In this document: piece after piece, positions 1 through 14,789 of the stretch
How positions within the stretch are numbered: position 1 is the stretch's first letter
How the letters are laid out: each line of letters starts with the position of its first letter
Source: Flavihumibacter soli
GTDB lineage: Bacteria > Bacteroidota > Bacteroidia > Sphingobacteriales > Sphingobacteriaceae
DNA: 64,000 nucleotides
NCBI RefSeq assembly: GCF_010692725.1
Contig: NZ_JAAFZB010000096.1
Location: forward strand, 1,240,001-1,304,000
Direction: 5' to 3'
Notes under the pieces: model-generated
What the model was told of the DNA's origin: nothing
Seen by the model: the letters and a program-made list of their open reading frames with translations, nothing else
Database searches by the model: none
Translations under genes and position numbers: made by a program

Positions 1-2536
1 CACTGCTACTGCAATCCTCCAGCCTTGCAGTCGGATAAACTGTTTTTAACGTAGTAAAACTTCTGACAAATCGTTCTAAGATGCGGTTATCAGGATCACT
101 TTCTAACCCAGCTTTTACACCTAATAACTTTTTATAAGCGACTTCGAATTCCTGTAGCTGCTGGTTATTTACCCAGCATATTTTAGGATATAAATGAGCG
201 GGTGTTTCCATACGAATAACCCGTTCGCAGTATGTTCTAAAATTCATATTTAAGAAGCGTTCTGAATAGGCCGGTAAAATAATACTAAGCCGGAATGAAT
301 ATGGATCGGTCATCTCGCAGTCGTCACAATTCTGATCAGCACAAACAGGCATGAACCCTCTGTCGTCATTGGTCTGTTCGTCGGGCGATCGTGGAGACGC
401 AACTCCCGGTGTATCCGGTAGTATCAATATGTTTTCCACGAGAAACATGCCCTCTACACTCTGATTTTTTGAGATCAGATGGTGCAAAGCTGCCAGTGCC
501 GAAACCGCTTCCTCATTGGTATCGTGTTGAGTCTGCCCGACAGCAATCGCTTTGCCGGCTCTATCTTTTAACTCAATGATAAACCGGCCGTTGCTTGTAT
601 TACTGAAACTATACCTGGAAAGGTCATGACCCAAATCAAGGGCATCCGTTAAACGTCTCTCAGCCACTTCGGCCGAAGTGAATTCTTCTGCCGAGGCCAT
701 TAAAATATTCCCGGTTCGGTTATCGACCAGCTCAAATCTAAACAGCTCTGTGCCGCTATCGCGATTGCTTTTTACCACTGAAAACAAATTCACAAGCGTC
801 CGCCGTTTAATATCAGCAAAACCCAGCAGGCTTTGCAGTCTTTTTTCCAGTCCGCTGATATTTTCGGTATCCCATTGATCGCTATCCGTACTGTTATATG
901 CCGCAAAACGCCGGCTACTGTATTCGGGATAATTTTTAAGAAAACGCACTTTGCTATTAATCAATCCCTGACGGTTAATATCAGGAAAAACGCTTTTGAG
1001 AATATTTGCATAGTCAAAAAATGATTCTGAAAATCTGGAAAGCAGATGATCGAGAAAAAGGTTTCTGCGCTGGTCAAATGTGTCGGGCATTTCGGCCGCC
1101 TGCTGAATGTGATGCCCGGCATCGGCAGAAGATCTTAACAGATCTGCATCAGAAACGAGTTCGAGAGGCTGTTTGGTAAAGTAAGTTTGCTTAATATCCT
1201 CATCTAAGGAAAATAACTGGCTGAGATTCGCAAGTTGGGCAGTGTAATTTGCCAGCTGCTGATCAAAGAAATACAAGTAAGCCTGAAACTGCCGGGCCTG
1301 CACCCGACGGGCAACAGGTGCATCGTCTGGCAAGCCCCAATGGCTAATGCCGTAGGTTTTTGGATAATGATGCTGTATGGAGTAATATTCGCCAATATCA
1401 CGGTAGGTGCCGGTCTCGTAGCTGATATCTTCGGAAGTGACACTTTCATTAGCGGCGATATATGCATCCATCAACCGGTCAAAATGCAGCTTAATATCCT
1501 GTGGCCGTGGACGGAAAGGCATACCATCTTTATACAACACTACCTTTGATCCCAAAATATTTATTACAGGCTGTCTGCCATCAGGTACATCAATTACCCA
1601 TCTATTGGCCATTTCCGTTGTTTGTGTACCGGCAACAAGAATGATATCGGGAATATTAAGCACCCCTGAAACCGACATTATTTGCTGCATAATATCACTG
1701 AGGTGGATCTCCGATTTCAGCTCAGAAGCAATTAACTCCTCATTTTTAATAAAGCCATGCTCAAGCAGGGGTCCTTCATAAATTGCATCGGATGTATAAT
1801 TTTTTGCAAACATCTCGGCCAGTCTGTAAAACTTAACCATAGGTGTCAGGTGTAGCTGAATATTGAAATAGACCTGCGCCATTAATTCAACCGGATTGGC
1901 ATTAGCCGCGATCTCAATCTCAGTGCACAGCCGAAATTTTTCTTCCTTTACTTCACTAACAGTCGTAAAGTCTTCGCAAAGATTACGATTGTTCACTAAT
2001 ACCGCCTTCGCTTTAAGCTTAATAAGCTCCTTTTCTACGTCGTTAACATTAGTGTCAAACTCAAGTAGTGCCTGATTAAAACCTTGAATCGTCACCTGCT
2101 CCCATATTCTGCTCCTGGGTACGGTATGAGATAACTTTTTATTAGTAATATCGGCATAGATAACTTTTGGATCCTTTTTGATCCAGGCATTTTTTATTCC
2201 TTCAATATCGATCAACAATTTGCGGTAATCATTTGCAGTGAGCGCTTTGTTGGGAAATATATTTTTCGCCGATATGAAATGCTGCTGGATATTTTTAACG
2301 GTATCAGTCTTTGTGGCCAGCAGATCCGGGATAGAAAAAGTGGTGCGATAGCTCAAGTCGGTTATGGCATAACACAAAATTTCAAGCGTGGTAATACCCG
2401 GATCATGAATGTTGTAATCCGTCCAGATGGCTGATGCTGTTTTTTCAATATATGCAATACCCAACCTTCTTAACTCCTGATAATCCAAACCCGGATCCTC
2501 AGGTTTTTGGGTTGATATGGTTAATGAATCAGGCAT
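1..2536 (-). CDS. eCIS giant baseplate protein (Afp11/Afp12-like), 3' end beyond window
   Basis: The minus frame from the ATG at 2536 stays open for 845 codons to the left edge, so the gene is partial at its 3' end. The N-terminus (residues 15-70) reads LDYQELRRLGIAYI, then WTDYNIHDPGITTLEILCYA, then LSYR; this 'W-x-DYN-x-HDPGIT-x-LE-x-LCYA' pattern is typical of large baseplate wedge proteins in Bacteroidota contractile injection systems. Near residues 795-815 an RMETPAHLYPKICWV-like segment matches the C-terminal motif seen in the same group. It starts 6 bp after the baseplate J gene stop and is the twelfth gene of the operon. Role by family: wedge plate around the spike that triggers sheath contraction. 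Exact assignment to Afp11 or Afp12 is not settled. I checked the whole frame for stops and found none. Confidence 0.8.
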   Translation of the reverse strand, partial: MPDSLTISTQKPEDPGLDYQELRRLGIAYIEKTASAIWTDYNIHDPGITTLEILCYAITDLSYRTTFSIPDLLATKTDTVKNIQQHFISAKNIFPNKALTANDYRKLLIDIEGIKNAWIKKDPKVIYADITNKKLSHTVPRSRIWEQVTIQGFNQALLEFDTNVNDVEKELIKLKAKAVLVNNRNLCEDFTTVSEVKEEKFRLCTEIEIAANANPVELMAQVYFNIQLHLTPMVKFYRLAEMFAKNYTSDAIYEGPLLEHGFIKNEELIASELKSEIHLSDIMQQIMSVSGVLNIPDIILVAGTQTTEMANRWVIDVPDGRQPVINILGSKVVLYKDGMPFRPRPQDIKLHFDRLMDAYIAANESVTSEDISYETGTYRDIGEYYSIQHHYPKTYGISHWGLPDDAPVARRVQARQFQAYLYFFDQQLANYTAQLANLSQLFSLDEDIKQTYFTKQPLELVSDADLLRSSADAGHHIQQAAEMPDTFDQRRNLFLDHLLSRFSESFFDYANILKSVFPDINRQGLINSKVRFLKNYPEYSSRRFAAYNSTDSDQWDTENISGLEKRLQSLLGFADIKRRTLVNLFSVVKSNRDSGTELFRFELVDNRTGNILMASAEEFTSAEVAERRLTDALDLGHDLSRYSFSNTSNGRFIIELKDRAGKAIAVGQTQHDTNEEAVSALAALHHLISKNQSVEGMFLVENILILPDTPGVASPRSPDEQTNDDRGFMPVCADQNCDDCEMTDPYSFRLSIILPAYSERFLNMNFRTYCERVIRMETPAHLYPKICWVNNQQLQEFEVAYKKLLGVKAGLESDPDNRILERFVRSFTTLKTVYPTARLEDCSSS

Positions 2537-2542
2537 AGCTGG

Positions 2543-5500
2543 CTAATAATTGCTAACAAGATGCTTAAAATGCGATACCAACACACTTGCCGGGTTAGAT
2601 GCCTCAACTACCTCCACTTTTTTAAAACTTAATCCTCCATCTAAAGAATGATATAACTTCAGGTCAACGATGAAATCCACAAACTCCATCTCTTCTAAAA
2701 ATTTGACGATCATCGAATGGGTAACCTTTCTTCCGAAATGAATGCTGCCTCCGTTAGAGCTTATCCATGGCGAGAAATACTCCTGCAATTTTTTGTCTAT
2801 AATATTTTGGTAGTAGTTAAACTCAAACCCCGTTTTCAGTTTTATAGCGGCAGAAATTTGAACTGGCTCGTAGTAAGGGTTTGTTATATGATGTGTAACC
2901 CAGTTGCTTGAATGTGCGGTTAAAAAAGTGTAGACCCTATCCAGCGTATTCTTATCCGCCCGGGGCTTCAACGGATCCACTGCATTCTGGTTGGTCAGAT
3001 CAGGCACCACAATAACCAGCACATGGCCGGGCGCATAGAAGGAGGTATCTGATGCATGATTTATGCACTTAACTTTATGCAGTGCGGGGAAATGCTGCAG
3101 GATCAAACGCTCATAATCCCAGTTCGAAATACTACGTTCTTTATGCCGCAGTCTTTCTGATACCCGGATATAATACGCATCATCGTTTTCCTCCATAAGA
3201 CCGCCAAAAGAAGCATAGGGTTGGCTGACTGCTTTAATGGTCCCGATCTCAGGATCAAGTTTGGTAATAGTATTCGCGGCCAGTGGAGCAGCCAGATGTG
3301 ATGGATCATTATCAGCGATCTCGAACTGTGTAACCGCAGCATTCGCCTTTACATCTATTATATTGCAAACAGCATCACTGTCAGCTTTGATCGATGCCCG
3401 TAACCAGAGGAGGCCGCCAGGCATTATCGTATTAACAGTGGTTGCTTCGCGGGGTATGACAATTTTTATCACACCGCTGGTGAGCAGGTCATTTGTGGTA
3501 TCGAAAATAAAATCTGCCTCACCAAGAGCCTTCCAATAATTATCGCACAGAACACTCCAGATAATATTTACCTTGGGCTTTTCAGGATTAGCGCTCCCTT
3601 CAGCCACCTGAAACAACACAGAGGCCGCATCTTCAGCGCCTAACCCGCTAAAGCCGATGAAGAATGAACCTTCGTATTCGGATTCAGGCAAGAGCGAAAC
3701 CTGGGTATTCGTAAGAAATTGTTGCTGGGTTTTCAGGTACGTATGCTCTCGTTTCTGGCCAAATGCGCCATAATGGAAAAACTCGATCTCTTCATCAAGA
3801 TAATCATTCAATGATGTTCCATCAAACCGGGTTTTAGTGGTGGTGGCAGTATAATTAAGTGTGATGGATAGAATCTCGGGCGCAAAAGGTTGGTTCGGCA
3901 AGGCTAGTGTACCTCCTAACCTGCTGTAACGCAAAACCTCTGCTGTATATTTGTCCTGGTACTCTCTAAACAGAAAGGTTTTATTGAGCCGCAGGCTAAA
4001 CCTTCCTTTCTGAAGCTCCTTATATGGAGATGCCATCTTATCAATAAACTGGGTAATATTAATTGCACTACGGTTAAAAGAATCGGCGCGCTTTACTAAA
4101 TTATTTGGTTTCGACGATCCTGCCGTTTCGAATAGTGCCCCCGGCTTTAATGGGGCGAATGATGGCATTAAAAATGCCATTTGGCTTCCAACTTTCTGCT
4201 GCAGAGGCTGTCCGGCATATTGGTATGATGCTTTTTTCAAGTGCGGGATCGCTACCAGAGAAGATTTTACGGGGGGAGTGGAACTTGTGAATGTCCATTT
4301 GCTATCAATCTGCGCATTATCAGCATTAAATAGGTCGACAGGTGTAGATTTCTCTTCCCATGCAAAGCCGTCTTTAAAACCTGCGATCGCTTCAAAATAC
4401 CCATTCGAAAATCCAGTACCGTACGCTGAGAAATACGTTGATAAGTCTGAGGCTGGAATATTTTTCCATTGCACATCAAACGAAAACTCTTTTAATCTTT
4501 TTGAAAACGCTTCCTCATATCCTACGGTGAAATTTGCGTTAATCTCAGGTGTGGAACCAAACGGGGCAAATGGTTTTTTAGCATCCAGGGAACCGAAATC
4601 ATTTTCGAGGACCAATTCTTTGATCCCTTTTGCTTCGACTTCTATTGTAGCATCTAACAGTTCACAACCTGCCAGGTCCTTGGATCCAAAATCTGCCTTC
4701 TGGTTGTTGATCAGGACCTGAAGTACGGGGTGCAACGTATCGAAATTGTTGCCGTGAAGGTCTGCAGCGTAAGCGGATACAGCAGGTTCATCCCTGGTTA
4801 GACGAAACACAAGCTGAAAATTATAGACTGAATTATTTACTTGTGTAACTGTTGGAGATACTGTTTTAGGGGCTAACCAACCTTTCGTCCCGGTAATGCT
4901 TATTATAAAAAGGCCTGCTGTTGATGCAGTATTTTTTGCACTTTCAGGAATATTATTCAGCGTGAGGTTCACAGTAATCGTGCGATCACCCTCTTTCATT
5001 TTAAGCACACTGCTTGCTAAGCAAAAACCTATTTGTGCCAATGGGCGGTCTTTACCGCCGAAAGCATTATATCCTGGGTTGCTCTTATCCAGTTCAGCTC
5101 CGAGCCCATCGGCAGAATTTGCAACAGGAGCAAAGTGAATGAAATTATTGTTTAAAGAATCCTTATAAAGTGATTTTAGCTCCGCTACGCTAGAGTTGTT
5201 AACCACGATATCATGCGTCAACTTATAAATGCGGTCTTTTTTGCTTTTGTCTTGACCGCCCAACAGCGATGTGCCGGTTTTGAGCAAAGTGTCGCTTGTA
5301 TTTTTTTTTAGTTCAAAAACAACATGGGCTTTGTCGGGCGATGGTGGTTTCTTTTTTAGACGCAGGACATCTCCGTAATAAAAATCAAGATGCCGTTTGG
5401 TGATTGCGTTCGCTAAGTCTTGAGGAAACTGATACAGACTGATAAACGTTTGCCATAGCGCAATATGAGGTGGAAGAGCCCCCTTCGCCGCTAAACTGCT

Positions 5501-5734
5501 TAACTCATCGGCAGTCAGATCAAAAAAATCCTGCCAGTCGCCATTTTCGTTTACTAAATCGGTATCGAAGAATTTAACCTGTTTTGAAATATTTTTGAGG
5601 TAATCAAAAAACTCTTCTTTGGTTCGGGCATCAACAGGCACCAAAGAGGGCTGCAACCATTGCGGCATACGCTGCTGCTGTGTTTGCCCGTCCCGTTTTA
5701 AAAGAATTCTGTAGTCTATAGCTTTATTGCTCAT
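2543..5734 (-). CDS. eCIS baseplate J-like wedge protein
   Basis: 1063 residues. The C-terminal third carries the baseplate J (gp6/gp47) signature of eCIS: PYASFGGLMEENDDAYYIRV, then SERLRHK, then WDYERLILQHFPALHKVKC, at roughly residues 840-905. The N-terminus (about 1-75), with a GDWQDFF motif, is the usual start of the large Afp11/Afp12 class. By family knowledge it forms the baseplate wedge linking the spike hub to the sheath. It overlaps the gp25-like gene by 4 bp (ATGA-type coupling) and is followed after 6 bp by another giant baseplate gene. The middle 500 residues are beta-rich and lineage-specific, with no motif I recognise. Predicted cytoplasmic, no signal peptide. Confidence 0.88.
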   Translation of the reverse strand: MSNKAIDYRILLKRDGQTQQQRMPQWLQPSLVPVDARTKEEFFDYLKNISKQVKFFDTDLVNENGDWQDFFDLTADELSSLAAKGALPPHIALWQTFISLYQFPQDLANAITKRHLDFYYGDVLRLKKKPPSPDKAHVVFELKKNTSDTLLKTGTSLLGGQDKSKKDRIYKLTHDIVVNNSSVAELKSLYKDSLNNNFIHFAPVANSADGLGAELDKSNPGYNAFGGKDRPLAQIGFCLASSVLKMKEGDRTITVNLTLNNIPESAKNTASTAGLFIISITGTKGWLAPKTVSPTVTQVNNSVYNFQLVFRLTRDEPAVSAYAADLHGNNFDTLHPVLQVLINNQKADFGSKDLAGCELLDATIEVEAKGIKELVLENDFGSLDAKKPFAPFGSTPEINANFTVGYEEAFSKRLKEFSFDVQWKNIPASDLSTYFSAYGTGFSNGYFEAIAGFKDGFAWEEKSTPVDLFNADNAQIDSKWTFTSSTPPVKSSLVAIPHLKKASYQYAGQPLQQKVGSQMAFLMPSFAPLKPGALFETAGSSKPNNLVKRADSFNRSAINITQFIDKMASPYKELQKGRFSLRLNKTFLFREYQDKYTAEVLRYSRLGGTLALPNQPFAPEILSITLNYTATTTKTRFDGTSLNDYLDEEIEFFHYGAFGQKREHTYLKTQQQFLTNTQVSLLPESEYEGSFFIGFSGLGAEDAASVLFQVAEGSANPEKPKVNIIWSVLCDNYWKALGEADFIFDTTNDLLTSGVIKIVIPREATTVNTIMPGGLLWLRASIKADSDAVCNIIDVKANAAVTQFEIADNDPSHLAAPLAANTITKLDPEIGTIKAVSQPYASFGGLMEENDDAYYIRVSERLRHKERSISNWDYERLILQHFPALHKVKCINHASDTSFYAPGHVLVIVVPDLTNQNAVDPLKPRADKNTLDRVYTFLTAHSSNWVTHHITNPYYEPVQISAAIKLKTGFEFNYYQNIIDKKLQEYFSPWISSNGGSIHFGRKVTHSMIVKFLEEMEFVDFIVDLKLYHSLDGGLSFKKVEVVEASNPASVLVSHFKHLVSNY

Positions 5735-6156
5735 GCCGATTTATTATTAGCTTCATTCATATAAAACGGATAGACCAGGTTAAAGCGGGAATTGGTAGTA
5801 ATTATCTCATACGCTATATGTATATCGACCCGCCCTTCGTTGATAAAAAATGTTGTATCCAGATTTACGCTTAACAAGTTAATTCGTGGTTCAAATAAGA
5901 GAATTGCGTTTTTTACGGTGATCTTTATTAAAGTTTGGATGGTGGCATTCATAGGCTCAAAAACATAATCCTCAAGGTTGCACCCATACTCGGGTTGCAG
6001 AAAGCGCTCTCCAACGGTGGTCGATAATAGTATCTCAAGACTCTTTTGAATATCCAGTTCATCAGATGTCATCTCCAACCCATTATTGATTTTTGAGAAT
6101 GTTGGCGGGAAACTCCAACCTCTGCCTAAAAATGAACGTTCAGTAGTATCAACCAT
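5731..6156 (-). CDS. eCIS gp25-like baseplate wedge protein (Afp9/Pvc9 type)
   Basis: 141 residues, the normal size for the T4 gp25/Afp9 family. The diagnostic start FLGRGWSFPPTF is at residues 9-20, and the central segment (about 40-75) has the family pattern: a helix, ERFLQPEYG, then a small-domain turn around YVFEPMN. gp25-like proteins sit in the inner baseplate and nucleate sheath polymerisation. The gene lies 18 bp after the 83-residue gene and overlaps the baseplate J gene by 4 bp, consistent with translational coupling of the two wedge subunits. There is no signal peptide or membrane segment. The assignment is firm on motif, size and context. Confidence 0.92.
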   Translation of the reverse strand: MVDTTERSFLGRGWSFPPTFSKINNGLEMTSDELDIQKSLEILLSTTVGERFLQPEYGCNLEDYVFEPMNATIQTLIKITVKNAILLFEPRINLLSVNLDTTFFINEGRVDIHIAYEIITTNSRFNLVYPFYMNEANNKSA

Positions 6157-6174
6157 AGCTGTAGTACTTTAGTC

Positions 6175-6426
6175 TTAACCGGTGATTTTTACGCTTGCCC
6201 TATACTCCTCACTGCCAATAGTGGTTCTTATTTCAAATGCTTCAGGGTGCTCTAAAAGATGCCTTACCACACCTTTTGCAATAGCAAGGTAGAGCAGCTT
6301 GGTTTGTGAATTAGCCGGAGGTGGGTCACCATCCATAAGGTTAGGCCACTCTTCTGTAAAAGCGTCTTCCATGGCTTTAGCCATGCTGGACTCAAAGTCT
6401 GAGGAAGTACCTGATTTAAGCGCCAT
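6175..6426 (-). CDS. Small conserved protein between eCIS spike and gp25 genes
   Basis: 83 residues, acidic N-terminal half, no signal peptide or membrane segment. The first half (residues 9-40) looks helical and ends in a DGDPPP loop; the second half has LLYLAIAKGVVRHLLEHPEAF followed by a short beta-rich tail (EYRASVKITG). I recall similar short proteins in phage tail modules but cannot name a family. It sits 10 bp after the VgrG-like gene and 18 bp before the gp25-like gene, so it is almost surely co-expressed with the baseplate. It is not a PAAR protein: no PAAR repeats or metal-ligand residues are visible. A baseplate or assembly role is inferred from position only. Confidence 0.7.
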   Translation of the reverse strand: MALKSGTSSDFESSMAKAMEDAFTEEWPNLMDGDPPPANSQTKLLYLAIAKGVVRHLLEHPEAFEIRTTIGSEEYRASVKITG

Positions 6427-6436
6427 ATCTTACAAT

Positions 6437-8326
6437 TTAACCTGTTTTTACTTTAGTCGAAAGCAACGCCGCTGTTGCGGGCGGCAGCGGGGGTACTGGC
6501 GGCGCGGGCGTAACGGGTAAAACCCCCAATGCCAGCTGGCCAGGATGTGTGTGTGTTTGATAAACCTGAACGATCTGGTTCAGATAACTTAACAACGAAT
6601 CGCCAAACACCAATGGGTGGGCGGCACCTTCTACCAGTGCAATTTGCGGGGCTTCAACCGTAACTTTCTGTTTTGCCTTTACTTTAATTGTGCCAGGCTT
6701 AATTTCGACCGTCATCAGGTTACTATCGTTCCCATCACTTATGTTGATCCCGCTTTCTGTCATTTCAATTTTGTTTTTATGCAGATCAACCAGTGTGATT
6801 GACTTCTTATCGTCGCTTATAGTTACTTTATTGCCTCCCGGCGTTTCAATTTTCAACTCCTTCTTTTCATCATCAAAGATCATTTTCAATTGTTCCCGGG
6901 ATGTGTAACCTTTCAGGTGATTATCGTTAGTCGGATCTAATGGCGATGGTAAAGCAGAACTATGCAGCATGCCGAGTATAACTGGCTGCCGGGGGTCGTC
7001 ATACAAAAATCCCAATATTACTTCATCCCCAACTTCGGGTCGAAAGAATAAACCACGGTTATTCCCGGCATCTGTTAAAGCGATGCGAGCCCAGACACCA
7101 TCGTCATCTGCATTGATATAAGGGAATTTTACCCTAACCCTCATTTCACCTTCAGGATCTTCATTATCGGTTACAATGCCGCTGTGCAAACCAATAACGC
7201 CTGGGAGTAACCCGCCGGCTTTTTGCCCAACTATGGCATTCTCATCAGAAAACCATTCGGGCGTGTGACCAAACTGAGCCTGTGTTTTCCAGCCATTTAC
7301 ACCATCGTAATCCTGACGGACGCCGCTAACAAATGCCTTTCCGTTAAAGCGGTCTCCTAATCCATTTAACTCAAGCACATCACCGGGGTTAATGGTTGCA
7401 ATGCCGCCAAATTTTACCCGTCCTCTTATTTTTGATAACCGGGATTTCAACAATTGAGCATTGCCCCATGCTTTTCGTTCTTCTGGCGTCAGTGCACCGG
7501 AATGGCTCAAGGTGAACTCATCCAAATCCATAACCGCCGCCAAATCGCTCGCCGCTAAATCTCCTTGTTCTTCAATATCTGAAGGTTCGCTTGCCTCTGA
7601 TTCCACGATGGTCTGGCTCGCCATATCCCAGGCCTTTGTTTTAACTTTAGGATATTGGTTGCGGCTGTCCATTTCTGCATCCAGTTCAATTATATCGTTC
7701 CCATATAAAAGAGAAAGTGCAGCATCACCCTTAACTGTTGGAGTTTTGATACTGATCTTTTCATCATTCGTCAGAATAATTTTGCTCGCCATTTCCGCAC
7801 GGTTCAAAATAAAATCCCAGTCCGTACAATTGTATTGCACCAGCTCTTTATGGACAAGTGTCGAAGATTGGATATCTATTTCGGGCGGTTTAAAACCGTA
7901 AGCTTTCAAGATTTTGTCAAACGCGCTGGTGTCAGTACTATTATGAAAACAAGCATTTTTTCTGCCAATAGTTGTCTTTACAACCTTGTGCTTACATTCT
8001 ACAATAAGTTGTGAAGCTCTGTCATTTCGTATTTTAAGGGATTGCTTCACAATAATTCCCGCAAAGATGAGGGAAGGAGCATTTAATTCTCCTGCGGAGA
8101 TCTGTATTTCATTTCCCTGTGTAAATAAATTGCCATCGCTCAATGGAAACTCCCCTGTTGACGGATTACCATCTTGTAAAACCAATAATGCAGACGATAT
8201 TCTATTCACCGTCTTCATTACATTTACCGAAACTATTGCAATAGTAAGCGGAAGTTCAGTTTCATTCACTGTAATAATGAACTCTGCTGTAGTCTGTACA
8301 GATGGTATAGTTTTATCTTCAGGCAT
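6437..8326 (-). CDS. eCIS spike protein, VgrG-like (Afp8/Pvc8 type)
   Basis: 629 residues. The N-terminal ~350 residues fit the gp27-like hub domain. At about 370-455 comes a gp5-like OB fold with the usual VgrG spacing: GLHSGIVTDNEDPEGEMRVR, KFPYI, then the GNNRGLFFRPEVGDEVILGF segment and PVILGMLHSS. After it a beta-helix stalk (DDEKKELKIETPGGNKVTIS and repeats) and a proline-rich end with HTHPGQL and TPAPPVPPLPP. By family it is the trimeric puncturing spike at the base of the tube. The start overlaps the LysM gene by 8 bp. No C-terminal effector extension is present, so it looks purely structural. The PAAR-type tip that normally caps it is not found in the window. Confidence 0.92.
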   Translation of the reverse strand: MPEDKTIPSVQTTAEFIITVNETELPLTIAIVSVNVMKTVNRISSALLVLQDGNPSTGEFPLSDGNLFTQGNEIQISAGELNAPSLIFAGIIVKQSLKIRNDRASQLIVECKHKVVKTTIGRKNACFHNSTDTSAFDKILKAYGFKPPEIDIQSSTLVHKELVQYNCTDWDFILNRAEMASKIILTNDEKISIKTPTVKGDAALSLLYGNDIIELDAEMDSRNQYPKVKTKAWDMASQTIVESEASEPSDIEEQGDLAASDLAAVMDLDEFTLSHSGALTPEERKAWGNAQLLKSRLSKIRGRVKFGGIATINPGDVLELNGLGDRFNGKAFVSGVRQDYDGVNGWKTQAQFGHTPEWFSDENAIVGQKAGGLLPGVIGLHSGIVTDNEDPEGEMRVRVKFPYINADDDGVWARIALTDAGNNRGLFFRPEVGDEVILGFLYDDPRQPVILGMLHSSALPSPLDPTNDNHLKGYTSREQLKMIFDDEKKELKIETPGGNKVTISDDKKSITLVDLHKNKIEMTESGINISDGNDSNLMTVEIKPGTIKVKAKQKVTVEAPQIALVEGAAHPLVFGDSLLSYLNQIVQVYQTHTHPGQLALGVLPVTPAPPVPPLPPATAALLSTKVKTG

Positions 8327-9080
8327 TGTTCTTTACTTTTCTATCGAAAGGGGGGAAAAAAAGCTTTTGTCCTGGTTGAAGATTTCTGAAATTCTTCATA
8401 TTGTTTGCTTTGGCAACTTCAAGATAATATTTAAAATCTCCGTAAATCTTGTATGCCATGGAAGGTAAGGTGTCGCCTTCCTGAACAATCCTCACATGGG
8501 TTAGATCTGGTGATTTCTTCTTATCTTCTGCCTGTGCGATCGGCGGACTTAATACTTCTATAAATGAGGCGTTAATAAGTACTCTCAATGGGGAACCCTG
8601 CTTATCAAATAATTTATACTGGAATGATGCAGACTTTAGGAGACAGTCAAAAGAATACTGATTCGTTCTTAGCCATGCCGCCTTTCCCCAAATCAGCTTT
8701 AGATACCTTGGCTTATGGACTTTCCCATCATAGCCGATTACCTCATGAAACTGACCTATTTTTAAAGGTACATCCAGTTTTCCGCCGGTTGCTTTATCAA
8801 CCACTACATTCGTCCCATCCAGGAAAAACTTTAAGGATACTTCTAAAGGTTGTATTTGAAGAAATGCGCTAAGATCATTGGAGTTTTTACCAGGCACATA
8901 AGTTTTATCAACAATCACATTATAGTTAAGCGTATATTCATCGGGATTAATAAAAGCTACAAAGCTTTTCAAATCTTGCGTACGTTCTTTATCACTGTAA
9001 GACTCTATCAAAAGCTTAACTACTTCCCCGCTATCTGTTAATCCTAAAGCACCGCTTACTGCACCAAGTATGTCAGCCAT
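8319..9080 (-). CDS. eCIS LysM-domain tube-baseplate adaptor (Afp7/Pvc7 type)
   Basis: 253 residues. The N-terminal ~190 residues are the gp53/hub-adaptor-like part, including KSFVAFINPDEYTLNYNV at 37-54, and the C-terminal ~50 residues form a LysM module: VQEGDTLPSMAYKIYGD, then NNMKNFRNLQPGQKLFFPP. This layout is that of Afp7/Pvc7, which joins the spike hub to the first tube ring and baseplate wedges. The start codon shares one base with the stop of the upstream DUF5908 gene (TAATG), and the end overlaps the VgrG-like gene by 8 bp, so the three genes are translationally coupled. LysM here is a structural module, not proof of peptidoglycan binding. Confidence 0.9.
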   Translation of the reverse strand: MADILGAVSGALGLTDSGEVVKLLIESYSDKERTQDLKSFVAFINPDEYTLNYNVIVDKTYVPGKNSNDLSAFLQIQPLEVSLKFFLDGTNVVVDKATGGKLDVPLKIGQFHEVIGYDGKVHKPRYLKLIWGKAAWLRTNQYSFDCLLKSASFQYKLFDKQGSPLRVLINASFIEVLSPPIAQAEDKKKSPDLTHVRIVQEGDTLPSMAYKIYGDFKYYLEVAKANNMKNFRNLQPGQKLFFPPFDRKVKNNA

Positions 9081-9247
9081 TACCGTTCGTTTTTCTGATT
9101 AATAATTTCCATTACCTTCTCCACACATTCTTTTATAATTGCTTCTCTAGAAGAAGCATTATCCGATGCTGCAGAAAAACCACCTTGCGAATTACTGTTT
9201 GGTGCTACCTGCACATTAACCTCTATTTCATTGATTACAATTGGCAT
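9080..9247 (-). CDS. DUF5908 small eCIS protein (position of Afp6/Pvc6)
   Basis: A 55-codon gene. It starts MPIVINEIEVNVQV, runs through a Ser/Asn/Gly-rich linker (residues 16-33) and ends in an amphipathic helix REAIIKECVEKVMEIINQK. The MPI-x-I-x-E-hydrophobic start plus short C-terminal helix fits the DUF5908 family, which recurs between the tube and LysM genes of eCIS loci. The start is 3 bp after the second tube gene stop, and its TAA shares an A with the ATG of the LysM gene. No biochemical function is established to my knowledge; a chaperone or minor baseplate part would fit. Small size makes it easy to miss in automated annotation. Confidence 0.85.
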   Translation of the reverse strand: MPIVINEIEVNVQVAPNSNSQGGFSAASDNASSREAIIKECVEKVMEIINQKNER

Positions 9248-9250
9248 AGC

Positions 9251-9796
9251 TTAAAAATTTACGGACCCCGAAATCTGACCGGAAACCGCGCTCGTAACTG
9301 CACCGACGGCGCCACCTATTACTGAATCCAACCCTATAATCTTAAAATACTGATAGGATAGTTCAAGCGTCTCTATGACCAGCGAATTCTGTTCGGCATT
9401 AAATTCAGATATATTCAGCTTTACCGGGTATGCATTGAAAACATGCCAGGTAGTAAGAGGTATATGCAGGTCATTTAGCAAGCTGATAATGATATTCTTA
9501 GGCTCGATCTTAAAATTTTGGATGGCATCGTCTACCCAGCCTGTTATAAATGAGCCAATAAACATTCCACGTTTTAAAACCAATTTGCCATATTGCGGCA
9601 CACCGGGCATCTGGTGTTTAAACCGGTTTTCTCCCCCTTCTGCGACTGCCTCCGTAGGGATATCCACGCTCAGGCCGCTCACACTCTGGAAGCGAAAATC
9701 CTGGGGCGTCTGTGGAAACATTTCGATAACCACGAGGAAATGAAATCCCGAAGGCGGATAAATCAATCCATCCATTATACCGTTGATCAGGCCCAT
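9251..9796 (-). CDS. eCIS second tube protein, tube-initiator type (Afp5/Pvc5-like)
   Basis: 181 residues of the T4 gp19 tail-tube fold. Key family segments: PPSGFHFLVVIEM near the start, FQSVSGLSVDI at about 37-47, KLVLKRGMF, and the paired strands ISLLNDLHIPLTTWHVFNAYPVK ending in IETLELSYQYF. It is longer than the main tube protein next door, with a glycine/serine-rich C-terminal tail of about 25 residues. In Afp and PVC the longer gp19-like paralogue forms the first tube ring on the baseplate, and this gene has the matching position before DUF5908 and LysM. Gap to the tube gene upstream is 48 bp and to DUF5908 3 bp. Confidence 0.88.
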   Translation of the reverse strand: MGLINGIMDGLIYPPSGFHFLVVIEMFPQTPQDFRFQSVSGLSVDIPTEAVAEGGENRFKHQMPGVPQYGKLVLKRGMFIGSFITGWVDDAIQNFKIEPKNIIISLLNDLHIPLTTWHVFNAYPVKLNISEFNAEQNSLVIETLELSYQYFKIIGLDSVIGGAVGAVTSAVSGQISGSVNF

Positions 9797-9844
9797 ACTT
9801 TTAATTTTGGAGTGTTGAATAGATTATAAGTGCGGTAAATCCGC

Positions 9845-10279
9845 CTAAACATATTCAATTGTTAAACCTTCATGAGCCACGTCCAGTTGCTCTATAGCTA
9901 CCTCACTACCGTCAGCCTTCAGGTCTGTACTCTGAATTTTTACCGGAAAGGCGTTCTTTATTTTCCAGGTAACTACCGGTTCATGGTTCTCGTTCAGCAA
10001 GCTGATGGTCAGATCCCTTCGTTCAACAGCGTTTAGTGAAATGGTATTCAGCCAGTTATAAAATTCGTTATCGCCTTTAAAAACTCCTCTTTTCAGAGTC
10101 AGGTTGCTGAACTCACGCATACCTGGCATTTTCAGCTTGCTATACTCGGGAGAAGCGCCATCCCGGTATTCGATCAGCTTATTTTCTATGTTAAGCCCGC
10201 TGACTTCGGAAAAGCCAATATTCGTTCCGCCCCAATCAACATTGAAATGAAACTTTGGTAGGGGATATCTATTTGCCAT
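9845..10279 (-). CDS. eCIS inner tube protein (Afp1/Pvc1, gp19-like)
   Basis: 144 residues, the standard length for the gp19/Hcp-like tube subunit of eCIS. The start MANRYPLPKFHFNVDWGG, FSEVSGLNIENKLIEYR, LTLKRGVFKGDNEF and the closing EVAIEQLDVAHEGLTIEY are classical for the family. Hexamers stack into the tube that carries the cargo inside the sheath. It directly follows the sheath gene (38 bp) and is expected, with the sheath, to be the most abundant product of the operon. The call rests on motif, size and position and is secure. Confidence 0.95.
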   Translation of the reverse strand: MANRYPLPKFHFNVDWGGTNIGFSEVSGLNIENKLIEYRDGASPEYSKLKMPGMREFSNLTLKRGVFKGDNEFYNWLNTISLNAVERRDLTISLLNENHEPVVTWKIKNAFPVKIQSTDLKADGSEVAIEQLDVAHEGLTIEYV

Positions 10280-10317
10280 GATTTTAAGTTTAATGTGAGG
10301 TTAAATACAGGTCGTAA

Positions 10318-11886
10318 TCAGGACTCCTGCAGTTTATGAGAAAACTTGAGTATTATAAATTCTGCAGGACGCACTACGGCCATCCCAATCTCGATATTCA
10401 TTCGGCCCTCCAGGATATCTAATGCTGTCATGGTAATACCTAAGCCAATCTTTACAAAAAAGGCATGCTCCGGTTTTGCACCCGCCAACGCCCCGGCTCG
10501 CCACTGCTTAATAAGGAAGTTTTCTATCATCGCTTTTGCCCGTATCCATGTATTGGCGTCATTGGGTTCAAATACCACCCATTCAGTACCTTTTTTTATA
10601 GACTCCTCTGCAAAATTGAAGAAGCGTCGAACCGGTATATAGCGCCATTCATTGTCATTACCTGCGAGCGTACGGGCGCCCCATATCATCACTCCCTTGC
10701 CCGTAAAGTACCGGATGGCGTTCACTGATTTCCCGGACGTAGGATCTACATTTAATGACATCTGGTCGTTATGAGAGATCTTTATTGTAGCGGCGATGGT
10801 ATAGGCGAGCGACACATTCGCCGGGGCTTTCCACACACCCCGTGAGCTGTCTACAGCCGCATAAACACCCGCAACCGCGGTAGACGGAGGCATTTTAACT
10901 GTCAACTTATTCAATTCCAGTTTTATCTGGTTATAGAGTTCAGTATTCCCAGCTACTTCTGGCGGATTTGGAGGTGATTCTAATGAGGAAGGTTTTTCCA
11001 TATTTAGCCCACTCTGTATTTGACGTTTAAGTTTAATATCTGCTGGTGGGTTCTTGATTGTCTCCAGACTAATCTTACCGGTCGTAGTTGGATCAGAAGT
11101 TTCATCTGTCTCGGTTTGGGGTGCACCATTCAAGATGTAGATCACATTTATATCTGCGTCGTTATAGCGGTAAGAAAGTGATGTCTCCAGGTCAGGGAAG
11201 TAGGCGGCACCATATTTCAGCTGATCGATATTGGCTCCCAGCGTAGCCGCATTTCTGAATCCTTCAACAGAACTATTGATCTCATTGGTCGTGCCGGTCA
11301 CATGCTGGACATCCATAATCGTAAACCGGTCCTGCAGAAGGAAGCACTGATTCAGCGCTAGATTCATCAGCGTATGATATTGACCTGAATTGAGTGTTAC
11401 CGCATCGGGAAATAACAAAAGAGTGGGTTCATCCACTTTGGCTATTTCTTCAAGACCGCTTCGTAGCGGTACGATGTCGATATTGGTATCCGAAGGATTT
11501 CCTCCTGGATATGGTCCGACAGAAACAATGTAGCAGGGACCGCCGCCATTGGCGAAGTACATCTGCAATCCATAGTACATCTTAAATCGGGAACGTGTTG
11601 CCGGATTTGTCGCCGCCGAGATAGTGCGCGTCGTAATCCCGCCAGCAATGGTATCAGCAATAGTGACCGATATGGCGATCTCCTTTTGAGCAAAACCGAA
11701 CAATTGTTCATATTCCAATAATGACGTGATCCTGATCGGTTGCATGGCCAGGCTTTTGCCGTTAAATTCAGCCTTCTCAGTATACCCAATAAAAGCCGGT
11801 ATTGCCGTTTCCACTTCTGCTACAGAGGGTGGAAATGTAGGAATCTCCTTGATGTAAACTCCCGGTGTTTTAAATACGTCTGCCAT
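10318..11886 (-). CDS. eCIS contractile sheath protein (Afp2-4/Pvc2 type)
   Basis: 522 residues. The start MADVFKTPGVYIKEIPTFPP is the hallmark of phage-tail sheath proteins, followed by VETAIPAFIGYT. The end (about 390-522) has the conserved C-terminal fold: GVMIWGARTL, WRYIPVRRFFNF, then MAVVRPAEFIILKFSHKL, the segment that forms the inter-subunit handshake. Residues about 235-335 form a Thr/Pro/Glu-rich stretch that resembles a surface insertion. Afp and PVC have several sheath paralogues; here only one is visible, as in some Bacteroidota and marine systems. It lies 20 bp after the sheath-adjacent unknown gene. Confidence 0.95.
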   Translation of the reverse strand: MADVFKTPGVYIKEIPTFPPSVAEVETAIPAFIGYTEKAEFNGKSLAMQPIRITSLLEYEQLFGFAQKEIAISVTIADTIAGGITTRTISAATNPATRSRFKMYYGLQMYFANGGGPCYIVSVGPYPGGNPSDTNIDIVPLRSGLEEIAKVDEPTLLLFPDAVTLNSGQYHTLMNLALNQCFLLQDRFTIMDVQHVTGTTNEINSSVEGFRNAATLGANIDQLKYGAAYFPDLETSLSYRYNDADINVIYILNGAPQTETDETSDPTTTGKISLETIKNPPADIKLKRQIQSGLNMEKPSSLESPPNPPEVAGNTELYNQIKLELNKLTVKMPPSTAVAGVYAAVDSSRGVWKAPANVSLAYTIAATIKISHNDQMSLNVDPTSGKSVNAIRYFTGKGVMIWGARTLAGNDNEWRYIPVRRFFNFAEESIKKGTEWVVFEPNDANTWIRAKAMIENFLIKQWRAGALAGAKPEHAFFVKIGLGITMTALDILEGRMNIEIGMAVVRPAEFIILKFSHKLQES

Positions 11887-11906
11887 TATGATTGATTTAA
11901 TGTTGC

Positions 11907-12959
11907 TTAAATGGTCACTAAAATATCAGAGAAGATATCGCCACCCTCCTGCTTAACCAGGTTCAGTGACGGATTAGGAAGGTTGGCGATAAGCACCTTA
12001 TCATCCTGATCACTTAATTTTATGCCGCTAACCGGCTCTTCCTTCAATGGTAAGAGGTTACCCGACGCCATGATAAAAACTCCCGCCGGCGCACCGCTTT
12101 GCGCCGTGAAGGTTATTGGTGTTCCGTTAGTCTTTGCCACCGACACCCCGGTAACTGACTGGCTGAACTTATTGACTATTATGTACCGCCATTTAGTTGC
12201 ACGGTTGGCAAAGGCCATTTTATAGAATTTCGTTTCTACTGAGTTGTCTGACTGTTGAAACTGGTAGGTCGCCGGGAGACTGCTCTTGTAGAAAATTTCA
12301 ACTACGCCAAACGTACCTGCGAACTCGTAGCTGTCGGCCACAAAGATTGATGCGCGCTGCACCCCCCCAATAAAAAATCTAGCCCTGCCTGAACTTCCTC
12401 TATCCAGGTCGTACGAGAAATTAAAAGTATCGTTATGGTTACTCAGCTCCTGGCTTAACGCTTCGCCGGTGTCGGTAAAACGCAGTTCGCTGGCGAGATT
12501 TGCCGCAGTGCTGGTTTCTGAAAATGAAAATGTGCCGCTCTCAAATGTTTTAAGATCACTGTCCGTAACAACCTTAGCTGCTGTGTCAGCAAGCAGCAGC
12601 GGCGAAGTATCAGCTGCGAGGTTGCTTACCAGGTTACTGAAGTAATAGCGTTGCTTCTTGCTTCGGGCAACATTCAGAATCGTATAATTTTCGAATGCCG
12701 GCCGCTTCAGTCTCAGCAGAAAAGTAAACCGGGTCCCTTCAGTTAAGGGGCTTTTCATAAAATCTTTTCCTGCCTCCGTAGTAACCTTTGCAAATATTTT
12801 ACCACCTGTTTCCGTAGGCAAAAATCTCAGGCCGTGACTGTTCAGCAACGCCTGGCAGGCGATAGTTGGAACTACCTGCAGATCTGTGCACTTGCCGGTG
12901 AGATAAAAGCTATGCCTTATCTCCAGATCAAACAGCTGTTTATACTTTATACTGATCAT
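11907..12959 (-). CDS. Sheath-adjacent eCIS protein of unknown function
   Basis: 350 residues from the preferred ATG at 12959; an upstream ATG at 13034 would add 25 residues but would overlap the terminator gene by 62 bp, and the conserved-looking sequence (MISIKYKQLFDLEIRHSFY) begins at 12959. The protein looks beta-rich, without signal peptide or membrane segment, and carries LRFLPTETGGKIFAKV at about 50-65 and a mid segment FETSTAANL-like with repeated Thr/Ser. I do not recognise a family. It lies between the DUF4255 terminator and the sheath genes, with gaps of 13 and 20 bp. That position, in a Bacteroidota system, makes a cap adaptor or tail-end component plausible (AlgoCIS is reported to have an extra cap part). 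This is inference. Confidence 0.75.
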   Translation of the reverse strand: MISIKYKQLFDLEIRHSFYLTGKCTDLQVVPTIACQALLNSHGLRFLPTETGGKIFAKVTTEAGKDFMKSPLTEGTRFTFLLRLKRPAFENYTILNVARSKKQRYYFSNLVSNLAADTSPLLLADTAAKVVTDSDLKTFESGTFSFSETSTAANLASELRFTDTGEALSQELSNHNDTFNFSYDLDRGSSGRARFFIGGVQRASIFVADSYEFAGTFGVVEIFYKSSLPATYQFQQSDNSVETKFYKMAFANRATKWRYIIVNKFSQSVTGVSVAKTNGTPITFTAQSGAPAGVFIMASGNLLPLKEEPVSGIKLSDQDDKVLIANLPNPSLNLVKQEGGDIFSDILVTI

Positions 12960-12972
12960 TTTATATGGCCCG

Positions 12973-13587
12973 TTAACTGTCGGAGATTGTAATCTCTGTG
13001 ATTGGTGGAGCTTCCATCTTAGGCTCAGAATCAATAAAGCTCATGGTTCGTACTTTGTATATTACGCTCGGCATATACTTAGCTCCAAGTGCAGCCCATA
13101 AATTATTTTGCTGCTCGAAAGTAGTTCCGTGGAGTGTAGTAACCAGCCGTCCTACCTTCAGCCAGGGCTTATCCGGAGCTGCCTTTGCATTCATCTGAGG
13201 ATATGTTTCATTATCAAAAACGGACTGGCTCTGAAAGAAGGAAATTACGTAGGAGAGCAGCCGGAGAGCCGTGGGATAGTTGCTGGCAAAAACTGAAAAT
13301 AAGATATATGCGTTGATGTTAACCGGCGGATTTACCACTAATAATCTGTCATTTAACTTTTGGTAATTATACTGAGATTCAGCTACGCGGTCTTCCTCCA
13401 GGTTAATGAGGGTAATGATCACTTTAAAATTGTCATTCGCCTGGTCGGTTGGCAGAGCGAATGTGCCGTCAGGTTTCATTAGATTAGATAAAACGACACA
13501 ATCAATATTTCCCAGGTTCTCAGGATCCTTCCGTTTAAAATAGGAATTCAACTCTTCTGACAGGAATTCTAAAGCAGTGCGTATCAT
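12973..13587 (-). CDS. eCIS tube/sheath terminator, DUF4255 (Pvc16/Afp16 type)
   Basis: 204 residues. The start IRTALEFLSEELNSYFK, the loop PVNINAYILFSVFASNYPTAL, the LLSYVISFFQSQSVF helix and LWAALGAKYMPSVIYKVRTM are the recurrent blocks of DUF4255, the family of the tube terminator that stops polymerisation and caps the distal end. It is the first gene of the minus-strand eCIS operon; 416 bp separate it from the divergent LuxR-type gene, so the operon promoter should lie there. In Afp and PVC this gene is last in the locus; in this lineage it comes first. No signal peptide. Confidence 0.92.
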   Translation of the reverse strand: MIRTALEFLSEELNSYFKRKDPENLGNIDCVVLSNLMKPDGTFALPTDQANDNFKVIITLINLEEDRVAESQYNYQKLNDRLLVVNPPVNINAYILFSVFASNYPTALRLLSYVISFFQSQSVFDNETYPQMNAKAAPDKPWLKVGRLVTTLHGTTFEQQNNLWAALGAKYMPSVIYKVRTMSFIDSEPKMEAPPITEITISDS

Positions 13588-14003: not shown

Positions 14004-14789
14004 ATGAAAACAAATCCAGGGTTAACGTTCTGTGATTTTCTCGACAATGTCAAAAACTTATCGGGTGAGACTCATTCGAACGCTGTTGATTTAATGGGTG
14101 AATTTGCACAACGCCCTGACCATAATAATTTCTATCCCGACGAGGTTCTCCTGCTCATAGACTATGTAAAACACTGCTTCCTGATGATCTCAGGCATAAA
14201 CTCATTCCTCGGATATACCCGAACACAATTACTGGAAGCCGGTCCATCCTTTTTATATAGTATACGACATCCGGAAGATTTCAGAATATTCAATCAGAAG
14301 ATCTTTCCCACCAACATGTCATTCATCAAAGACCATTCTGCCGAAAATATCAGCGCTTTTACATTCACTACAAATTACCGGCTGAAGAGCCGTGCCGGTA
14401 CCTGGCTGTCAGTGAGTCACCGCTCCCGCTTTCTGAAATATTTACCAGACGGAACTCCCCTGGTATCACTTGACTTTTTATCTGATATATCGCATTTCAA
14501 GAAAGATGACCAGATAATTAATATTATCGAGAAAACTCAGGGGGGCCAGCGGAGCTCGAAGCAGCTGGTCAGCACCTTCCATCCGGGCGAAGATGAATCG
14601 CGAATAAGTAAACGCGAAATGATTGTACTACAGTGTATTTGCGATGGCTTTTCGAGCAAGCAGATCGCAGAAAAACTTCACATCAGCATCCATACAATTA
14701 ATAATCACCGTAAAAACATGCTCGGCAAAACAAAGTGTAAAAATTTGTCGGAGCTGGTAGCCCGTGCATCGAGGACCGGTATTTTATAG
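14004..14789 (+). CDS. PAS-LuxR family transcription regulator
   Basis: 261 residues, no signal peptide. Residues about 60-175 resemble a PAS sensor fold (a short FLGYT segment, SIRHPEDFRIFNQK, then YRLKSRAGTWLSVSHRSRFL and the strand PLVSLDFLSDISHF). Residues about 200-258 form a LuxR/GerE helix-turn-helix: SKREMIVLQCICDGFSSKQI, AEKLHISIHTINNHRKNML, KTKCKNLSELV. Such PAS-LuxR proteins are common one-component regulators in Bacteroidota. It stands alone on the plus strand, divergent from the eCIS operon over a 416 bp spacer, which suggests it may control that operon; no operator was identified. The ligand of the PAS domain is unknown. Confidence 0.85.
   Translation: MKTNPGLTFCDFLDNVKNLSGETHSNAVDLMGEFAQRPDHNNFYPDEVLLLIDYVKHCFLMISGINSFLGYTRTQLLEAGPSFLYSIRHPEDFRIFNQKIFPTNMSFIKDHSAENISAFTFTTNYRLKSRAGTWLSVSHRSRFLKYLPDGTPLVSLDFLSDISHFKKDDQIINIIEKTQGGQRSSKQLVSTFHPGEDESRISKREMIVLQCICDGFSSKQIAEKLHISIHTINNHRKNMLGKTKCKNLSELVARASRTGIL

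Follow-up and report, generated by a model that had tools for sequence, protein, structure and literature searches.

Why should genes for joining and methylating sugars lie beside the genes of a contractile injection machine? The question is raised by a window of 64,000 nucleotides (the whole stretch of DNA analysed, positions 1240001–1304000 of a 1.32 Mb contig) from Flavihumibacter soli, a relative of Pedobacter and Mucilaginibacter. The window opens inside the gene cluster of an extracellular contractile injection system (eCIS), and 19 kb to the left of its edge were also read; coordinates in this left part are given as L002, with the L002 position minus 19000 equal to the window position. 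Just past the cargo genes of the eCIS lies a three-gene cassette (L002:1041–5219) encoding a 742-amino-acid protein with two predicted glycosyltransferase (GT) domains and one predicted methyltransferase (MT) domain, designated hereafter as GT-GT-MT, a 220-amino-acid protein and a second methyltransferase. Our best explanation, in which our confidence is about evenly balanced, is that the locus encodes a complete clade Ib eCIS whose linked cassette glycosylates the particle in the cytoplasm.

Identification of the eCIS locus

The initial annotation of the window had described 12 adjacent minus-strand genes in positions 1–13587, and all 12 were found in place. Pfam named nine of these as eCIS or tail families (Pvc16_N/DUF4255, two gp19-type tubes, a sheath C-terminal domain, DUF5908, CIS_tube, a Phage_base_V spike, gp25 and Baseplate_J), in agreement with the sheath, two tubes, DUF5908, spike, gp25 and DUF4255 genes that had been listed. 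A proposed LysM adaptor proved to belong to the CIS_tube family, its LysM domain scoring below the Pfam cut-off (19.1 versus 20.9 bits), and the two giant baseplate proteins were identified by PDB sequence search as Alg11-like and Alg12-like wedges. The same search named two genes that had no Pfam match, the cap adaptor (11907–12956) and Alg12 (2–2536). The ATPase, tape measure, fibre and cargo genes predicted to lie hidden to the left were present there, together with the GT/MT cassette, which had not been foreseen; the PAAR gene also expected was missing.

Sheath, tube, gp25, spike and Alg11/12 wedges thus occur in one cluster with a DUF4255 cap, an AAA ATPase and a CIS tape measure (PF19268 E=5e-101), and three DUF4157/eCIS_core proteins are encoded beside it. 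A cap adaptor of the Alg16B kind and an Alg19/All3314-type (eBAP4) fibre, both features of clade Ib, were also found, and AlgoCIS, the Anabaena thylakoid-anchored contractile injection system (tCIS) and other eCIS ranked first among the PDB matches for the sheath, the cap adaptor, the two wedges and the fibre. Judged by its parts and the order of its best matches, the system belongs to the AlgoCIS/thylakoid-CIS kind of eCIS (clade Ib); that the eCIS itself is of a known kind is well supported. Apart from PAAR, no part of a clade Ib eCIS is missing.

Sheath, tube, gp25 and spike are common to phages, and the weaker PDB matches of the sheath included phages and a pyocin, which would be compatible with a prophage tail or R-type tailocin instead of an eCIS. 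We regard this as extremely improbable: DUF4255, DUF5908, CIS_TMP, the AAA ATPase and eCIS_core occur together, the top PDB matches were eCIS, and a Pfam scan of 27 genes in and about the locus (in the window, to 20.5 kb) detected no head or lysogeny family. The earlier statement that no capsid, terminase or integrase is near held for these 27 genes, in which no capsid, portal, terminase or integrase family was found, although no genome-wide search was made, and the eCIS interpretation gained further support from the AAA ATPase at the position of Afp15. Neither the TssJLM membrane complex nor ClpV of type VI secretion systems was found among the same genes, again with no genome-wide search. 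A genome-wide search with the sheath family PF04984 returned a single match, the window sheath, itself under the family cut-off. A phage origin of the nameless genes was rejected, since PHROGs gave no match for the 83-amino-acid protein p83 or the cap adaptor, as was a defence-system function, PADLOC having returned no match for the seven proteins tried.

The terminator-first gene order remarked upon in the initial annotation was confirmed, but not its peculiarity. The cap gene came first in 11 of 11 Bacteroidota eCIS loci compared, the window locus included, so that this order is the rule among them and was rejected as a novelty. In Anabaena, the numbering of the locus tags, from All3326 for the cap adaptor and All3325 for the sheath through 3317 and 3315 to 3314 for the fibre, suggests the same order.

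The GT-GT-MT enzyme and its cassette

The structure of a Hufsiella homologue of GT-GT-MT was predicted with AlphaFold from 28 sequences (predicted local distance difference test 86.9, predicted template modelling score 0.58, leaving the packing of the domains unsure). The model comprised a GT-A fold (residues 1–225), a second GT-A-like fold (250–520) and an S-adenosylmethionine-dependent methyltransferase fold (540–730). Among its best PDB matches Foldseek listed two proteins with paired GT-A domains, heparosan synthase 2 and chondroitin polymerase, followed by MeT1, SpsA, NovP, SpnH and MycF; the matches are thus folds of sugar polymerases and of sugar O-methyltransferases (MeT1, NovP, SpnH and MycF). 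DDDD and DSD motifs were invariant in nine GT-GT-MT sequences, the window copy among them, and so were the motifs presumed to be those of the methyltransferase.

No 19-residue window with a hydrophobicity above 1.6, as expected of a membrane-like stretch, was present in 13 cassette enzymes (from the window, G014, G020 and L130), and no flippase or lipid-carrier transferase occurred among the cassette genes named by Pfam. The lack of both suits glycosylation of protein in the cytoplasm. On the predicted folds, the product would be two sugars with a methyl cap, made by soluble enzymes.

In three closely related genomes (G014, G020 and G039), the counterpart of GT-GT-MT immediately precedes the cap gene along with two smaller genes for a GT or MT; all share the strand of the cap gene, and the nearest ends ~25–65 bp from it. 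The helper genes varied by locus and comprised Caps_synth and FkbM, MT208 and GT258, a five-gene set, or none.

Linkage to eCIS, distribution and phylogeny

In a scan of ~85,000 species genomes, 118 stretches encoded a relative of GT-GT-MT, and the best 80 of these yielded 79 loci. Sorted by their score to the window protein, 28 loci exceeded 650 bits, four with permuted domains scored 584–612 bits and 47 were weaker. Eight of the 28 had been known before the scan (seven in query alignment A1, the eighth being G239) and 20 were new, in a pattern search that favours close relatives. eCIS genes lay within 10 kb in 28 of the 28 high-scoring loci, in none of the four domain-permuted loci and in none of the 47 more distant ones. 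At least two kinds of eCIS gene were present in 27 of the 28, the exception, L145, having two DUF4157 genes; in 23 the GT-GT-MT gene was part of a same-strand run with eCIS genes (a putative operon, with gaps of <200 bp), and in the other five (L136, L137, L139, L141 and L145), as in the window's genome, it lay nearby but outside such a run. The methyltransferase part was absent from three (L144, L145 and L149). This linkage establishes the association of the cassette with eCIS.

Twelve of the 28 belonged to clade I (L139 and L142 by similarity of ATPase or tape measure solely), 14 to a DUF6519 type, and two were untyped. The position of the gene differed with type, mostly just before the cap gene in clade I and just after the fibre region in the DUF6519 type. 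A gene tree, to which the window copy was added and from which untyped rows were removed, contained four changes of eCIS type, of which well-supported branches force at least two. As the GT-GT-MT gene changes both the type of machine and its place in the cluster, yet always adjoins an eCIS, it most likely works for the eCIS.

Within 399 genomes of the same family, a high-scoring GT-GT-MT (>700 bits) was encoded in ten, in every case beside eCIS genes; that of G239 lacks the methyltransferase domain. The ten included all seven genomes of the branch with fibres close to that of the window and none of 36 other fibre-bearing genomes (Fisher p = 3e-8). The other three (G404, G423 and G317) carry the gene in a DUF6519-type eCIS, and upstream of it in G404 Pfam identified sheath, tube, gp25 and a PAAR-like DUF4280 protein. 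The gene is rare, being found (E up to 1e-60) in the window's genome only among 395 genomes sampled from the class. The 28 loci nevertheless span Sphingobacteriaceae, Chitinophagaceae, a metagenome-assembled genome (MAG) of Saprospiraceae, a MAG of Aquimarina and the betaproteobacterium Nitrosospira, with carriers including Hufsiella arboris, Pedobacter panaciterrae and Mucilaginibacter aquariorum. Viral contigs encoded distant relatives only (16 loci, best identity 38%, mostly in the first domain).

The cassette might simply travel with eCIS islands and have no functional link to them. Its loci are patchy, the close fibre occurring in 7 and the high-scoring gene in 10 of the 399 family genomes, and were probably moved horizontally; this would fit, as would the opposite strand of the gene in the window's genome. 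Linkage in 28 of 28 loci, occurrence with two types of eCIS, a change of partner on at least two occasions and differing positions in the cluster nevertheless make such hitch-hiking quite improbable. Alternatively, the GT-GT-MT protein and its partners might be injected effectors. Glycosyltransferase effectors of eCIS are known (Afp18-type; PMC10598620), and in DUF6519-type loci the GT-GT-MT gene lies between structural and cargo genes. However, the protein has no DUF4157 domain, and its catalytic fold begins near residue 7 without a disordered leader; in the three cargo proteins, by contrast, 116–289 residues precede DUF4157. The 28 members are, moreover, 47–66% identical to the first one, and in nine clade Ib loci the gene precedes the cap gene at the 5' end, whereas effectors tend towards the 3' end (PMC8213781). 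We therefore consider an effector unlikely; linkage, position and the missing leader weigh against both hitch-hiking and injection.

Modification of the cargo proteins rather than of the outer particle would be another role for the cassette. DUF4157 genes are its other neighbour in many loci and the sole nearby eCIS genes in L145; against this, the nine clade Ib loci join the cassette to the structural end of the operon, ~20 kb from the cargo where the cargo end was read (G014, G020, G039, G385 and G322), and we judge cargo modification rather improbable.

Two members of the 28 have unexpected hosts. In Nitrosospira multiformis (L141), GT-GT-MT is encoded beside an AAA ATPase and a DUF4157 protein and forms a long branch, perhaps as a result of old horizontal transfer. 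L143, labelled as Williamsia (Actinomycetota), groups with Bacteroidota sequences in the gene tree and is probably a mislabelled or mixed MAG.

Spike tip and fibre of the cassette-bearing eCIS

Three traits distinguish the window locus from the cassette-free relatives compared, namely the linked GT/MT cassette, a spike tip without PAAR and a shorter fibre without PKD domains. PAAR (PF05488, E up to 0.001) had no match in the whole genome of the window, DUF4280/DUF4150-type PAAR relatives not having been searched. Matches to PF05488 were found in none of the seven family genomes of the branch (G014 being only 68% complete) and once in each of the six cassette-free genomes tried, and a small PAAR protein was encoded between spike and gp25 in six of seven cassette-free loci inspected, G061 having a different gene there. 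In ten of 11 distinct cassette-bearing clade Ib loci, PAAR's place was taken by p83 and the spike ended in THxH near a proline-rich tail, an ending seen in none of seven cassette-free spikes compared. The two combinations, p83 with an HxH spike or PAAR with a plain spike, resemble interchangeable tips carried by eCIS loci that are closely similar in other respects. Since PAAR or p83 occupies the same place, pointing to a tip swap, the window system is described as an eCIS without PAAR and not as no eCIS.

The HxH motif forms the metal-bound apex of P2/Mu-type spikes, and by analogy the HxH-ended spike of the window suggests such an apex. No family match for p83 was obtained in Pfam, PHROGs or NCBIfam, and its predicted fold (predicted local distance difference test 71.9) had no PDB match better than E=0.19; p83 as a relative of PAAR was not supported. 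The PAAR spike tip is listed among eCIS core domains in PMC8213781.

In the fibre, the N-terminal 326 residues matched Alg19 (whole-sequence E=3e-55, PDB sequence search), and no receptor-binding domain was recognised in the fibres of the window's branch. An eBAP4-type fibre match occurred in 43 of the 399 family genomes, seven close to the window fibre (>830 bits) and 36 at ≤155 bits. The fibre open frames measured 931–971 residues in the seven and 1045–1724 in the 36. PKD domains were present in 11 of 20 cassette-free fibres versus none of six cassette-bearing ones, the scan covering 20 of the 36 and six of the seven branch fibres (that of G039, which spans two stretches, was left out). Because the seven genomes form a single branch, short fibre and lack of PKD are correlated facts and not repeated events. 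DUF6519 was found in one of 395 and two of 291 genomes; of the latter two, G317 has the full GT-GT-MT gene and G197 a divergent GT gene. The DUF6519 type has too few cassette-free members for an independent test of fibre shortening, and the claim of shortening rests on one branch.

The fibre also bears on self-protection, in which the cassette would alter the surface sugar of the producing cell and thereby keep its particles from binding to or firing on sister cells. AlgoCIS attaches to bacteria via its fibre (PMC13314943), and the smaller cassette enzymes vary between loci, as expected of receptor-modifying genes. The core enzyme, on the other hand, stays constant across loci with eBAP4-type and with DUF6519-type fibres, no receptor-binding domain is recognised in the fibres of the branch, and lipid-carrier transferase and flippase are lacking among the Pfam-named cassette genes. 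On balance we find self-protection doubtful, if deserving of serious consideration.

A proposed model for glycosylation of the particle

Returning to glycosylation of the particle, we propose the following sequence, in which the particle as acceptor, the chemistry of the sugar and the benefit are what we infer beside the observed gene content, linkage and distribution and the predicted folds. Particles would assemble in the cytoplasm, where GT-GT-MT and the variable smaller enzymes would attach a short O-methylated oligosaccharide to an exposed component, be it fibre, cap or sheath. Glycosylation would precede release, in the manner of flagellin glycosylation islands for flagella, and the particles would then be released, perhaps with the help of the muramidase. 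By analogy with AlgoCIS, the particle may bind its target, contract and drive the tube, loaded with the DUF4157 proteins, through the target envelope, the sugar protecting the particle or altering what it sticks to. A feature typical of protein-glycosylation islands, GT genes linked to a surface structure, is present.

Several points weigh against this model. No eCIS protein has an outstanding Ser/Thr tract, the highest Ser/Thr content being that of the cap adaptor (18.6%), and a cell-surface glycan would be just as plausible a target for a cassette of this kind. The GT-GT-MT gene of the window's genome lies outside the eCIS operon, on the opposite strand and beyond the cargo. L120, which falls in the same gene-tree branch, combines the cassette with PAAR (PF05488 E=2e-18), with a spike lacking the HxH motif (L120:17440–19477, the PAAR/plain-spike counterpart of window positions 6175–8326), and the cassette-bearing DUF6519-type G404 has its PAAR-like DUF4280 protein. 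As L120 carries both, the loss of PAAR is a separate tip swap and was dropped as a part of the cassette. The cassette-bearing Saprospiraceae locus L129, finally, has a fibre of 1465 amino acids, which counts against shortening on length, though it is without a Pfam domain. Neither the short fibre nor the swapped tip is strictly tied to the cassette.

In a bolder version of the model, the fibre of this branch would have lost its protein receptor-binding domains, and the particle would instead display a genetically encoded O-methylated oligosaccharide, which either serves as a recognition mark for lectins and predators in the surroundings or conceals the particle from them, GT-GT-MT being a movable module picked up by different eCIS lineages for this. 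It is weakened by the long fibre retained in cassette-bearing L129, and we think it improbable.

Features of the locus and neighbouring genes

The features of the locus are listed in Table 1.

Table 1. Genes of the eCIS locus, the linked cassette and the adjoining regulator, in window coordinates or, to the left of the window, in L002 coordinates
Feature	Coordinates	Strand	Evidence
Cap/tail terminator, Alg16A-like, DUF4255 = Pvc16_N	12973..13587	-	Pfam PF14065 E=5e-32
Cap adaptor, Alg16B/All3326-like; ATG start taken, not upstream TTG	11907..12956	-	PDB phmmer: Anabaena All3326 E=8e-13, Algo2 E=4e-5
Sheath, Alg2-like	10318..11886	-	Pfam PF17482; PDB E=1.6e-159
Inner tube protein	9845..10279	-	Pfam PF06841 E=7e-47
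Second tube/tube-initiator protein, Alg5-like by position	9251..9796	-	Pfam PF06841 E=4e-38
DUF5908 small protein, plug, Alg6-like by position	9080..9247	-	Pfam PF19265 E=1e-15
Tube initiator with LysM (LysM under cut-off), Alg7-like	8319..9080	-	Pfam PF19266 E=1e-35
Spike, Alg8-like, C-terminal THTHPG (HxH) motif	6437..8326	-	Pfam PF04717 E=2e-24; C-termini compared
p83, 83 amino acids, at PAAR's place	6175..6426	-	No family match
gp25 baseplate wedge, Alg9-like	5731..6156	-	Pfam PF04965 E=7e-22
Baseplate wedge, Alg11-like	2543..5734	-	PDB E=5e-141
Baseplate wedge, Alg12-like, 863 amino acids in total, extending 56 bases beyond the window's left edge	1..2536	-	PDB E=6e-142
Fibre, 927 amino acids, Alg19/All3314-like N-terminus	L002:16157-18940	-	PDB sequence search
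Tape measure CIS_TMP	L002:14693-16153	-	Pfam PF19268 E=5e-101
AAA ATPase	L002:13326-14699	-	Pfam PF00004 E=7e-26
N-acetylmuramidase	L002:12488-13312	-	Pfam PF11860 E=2e-61
DUF4157/eCIS_core probable cargo, 433 amino acids	L002:11181-12482	-	Pfam PF13699 E=3e-30 or better
DUF4157/eCIS_core probable cargo, 491 amino acids	L002:9558-11033	-	Pfam PF13699 E=3e-30 or better
DUF4157/eCIS_core probable cargo, 1385 amino acids	L002:5388-9545	-	Pfam PF13699 E=3e-30 or better
Cassette methyltransferase, 396 amino acids	L002:4029-5219	-	Pfam
Cassette protein, 220 amino acids, GT-like by eye only	L002:3281-3943	+	No family match
GT-GT-MT protein, 742 amino acids	L002:1041-3269	+	Pfam Glycos_transf_2 + Methyltransf_24
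LuxR (GerE) regulator, weak sub-cut-off PAS match	14004..14789	+	Pfam

The gene encoding the LuxR-type regulator (14004–14789) starts divergently beside the eCIS operon. Of the six remaining family genomes in the branch, five have a homologue (150–220 bits) close to the eCIS (six of seven with the window), none being found in the 40 kb read of G014. According to Geller et al. (2021; PMC8213781), GerE/LuxR regulator genes lie beside 25.8% of eCIS loci; the window gene adjoins the eCIS in the same manner and differs in its weak sub-cut-off PAS match and in its presence near six of seven loci of the branch. Also beside the eCIS (14849–15907) is a gene for an astacin/M12-like metalloprotease, which matches PPC weakly and lacks an obvious signal peptide; its nearest NCBIfam model, AbsR1, scored well under cut-off. 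It is possibly a cargo without DUF4157; conservation as cargo is not claimed, no homologue having been found in ten other eCIS loci compared.

Several cassette-bearing eCIS operons, of one type as well as the other, are immediately preceded by a NusG/RfaH-like antiterminator gene, named by eye (L235:14397–14903, L138, L133, L134, L148, L112:5601–6119 and L114:5190–5708); none was seen near the window locus, where no dedicated search was made. Other genomes of the same genus (L012–L016) have a different kind of eCIS with a tape measure of ~1245 versus 486 amino acids, presumably giving longer particles.

In L108 and L109 (family genomes G373, and G432, Pedobacter cryoconitis), GT2 genes ~16 kb apart flank other genes, with no eCIS genes between. 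Four loci from Flavobacteriia (L146, L147, L150 and L153, at ~10000–12200) encode GT-GT-MT relatives with another domain order, that of L147 being second GT, MT, GT2, in a conserved row of genes for proteins of ~206, 150–200, 965 and 202 amino acids, the last a Phage Tail Collar protein encoded by the next upstream gene in L147 and L150. This undescribed cluster may also specify a glycosylated surface structure. The same row of ~206-amino-acid, ~950-amino-acid and collar-like proteins followed by a GT2 gene was seen in distant clusters (L151, L152, L155 and L157) of a Desulfobacteraceae MAG, a Polarisedimenticolaceae MAG and Bacteroidota.

Comparison with known systems

Searches of open-licence PMC papers brought up no description of glycosylated eCIS particles and none of the GT-GT-MT gene. 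The string 'glycosyl' was absent from the available text of PMC8213781, PMC12923769, PMC12210884 and PMC13314943, and in that of PMC10598620 and PMC8894135 it referred only to an effector or its reference. The cassette suggests that some eCIS particles may be sugar-coated. eCIS are under development as protein delivery tools, and dedicated glycosylation, if real, would affect particle stability and the choice of target and would have been missed in structures of particles from cassette-free strains. The GT-GT-MT gene offers a marker for picking strains in which to test particle glycosylation.

The nearest structural parallel to the enzyme is heparosan synthase 2 (PDB 8vh7/8vh8/8viw), which likewise has two GT-A domains in one chain. 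GT-GT-MT differs in its extra methyltransferase domain and in ~15% identity, and with a whole-chain root mean square deviation of ~20 only the single folds agree; on this evidence from predicted structure, it does not appear to be a polymerase. As to the arrangement of genes, flagellin glycosylation islands encode soluble glycosyltransferases and methyltransferases beside a surface filament that these decorate in the cytoplasm. The cassette resembles them in having soluble GTs and MTs encoded beside a surface structure, the difference being that the structure decorated here would be an injection machine.

The Anabaena thylakoid-anchored CIS (All3314–All3326) shares with the window locus related sheath, cap adaptor, Alg11/12-type wedges and crown (All3314). 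AlgoCIS from Algoriphagus machipongonensis, also of clade Ib, has a homologous sheath, cap adaptor, Alg11, Alg12 and Alg19-type fibre N-terminus, other parts corresponding by family and position; it has two DUF4157 cargo genes (PMC8894135), against three in the window locus. AlgoCIS further has the PAAR-like Alg10 and a PKD-type fibre of 1443 amino acids, whereas the window locus combines an HxH spike and p83, in the absence of PAAR, with a 927-amino-acid fibre without PKD and a linked GT/MT cassette. The cassette, together with the swapped tip and the short fibre, is what is new in this eCIS.

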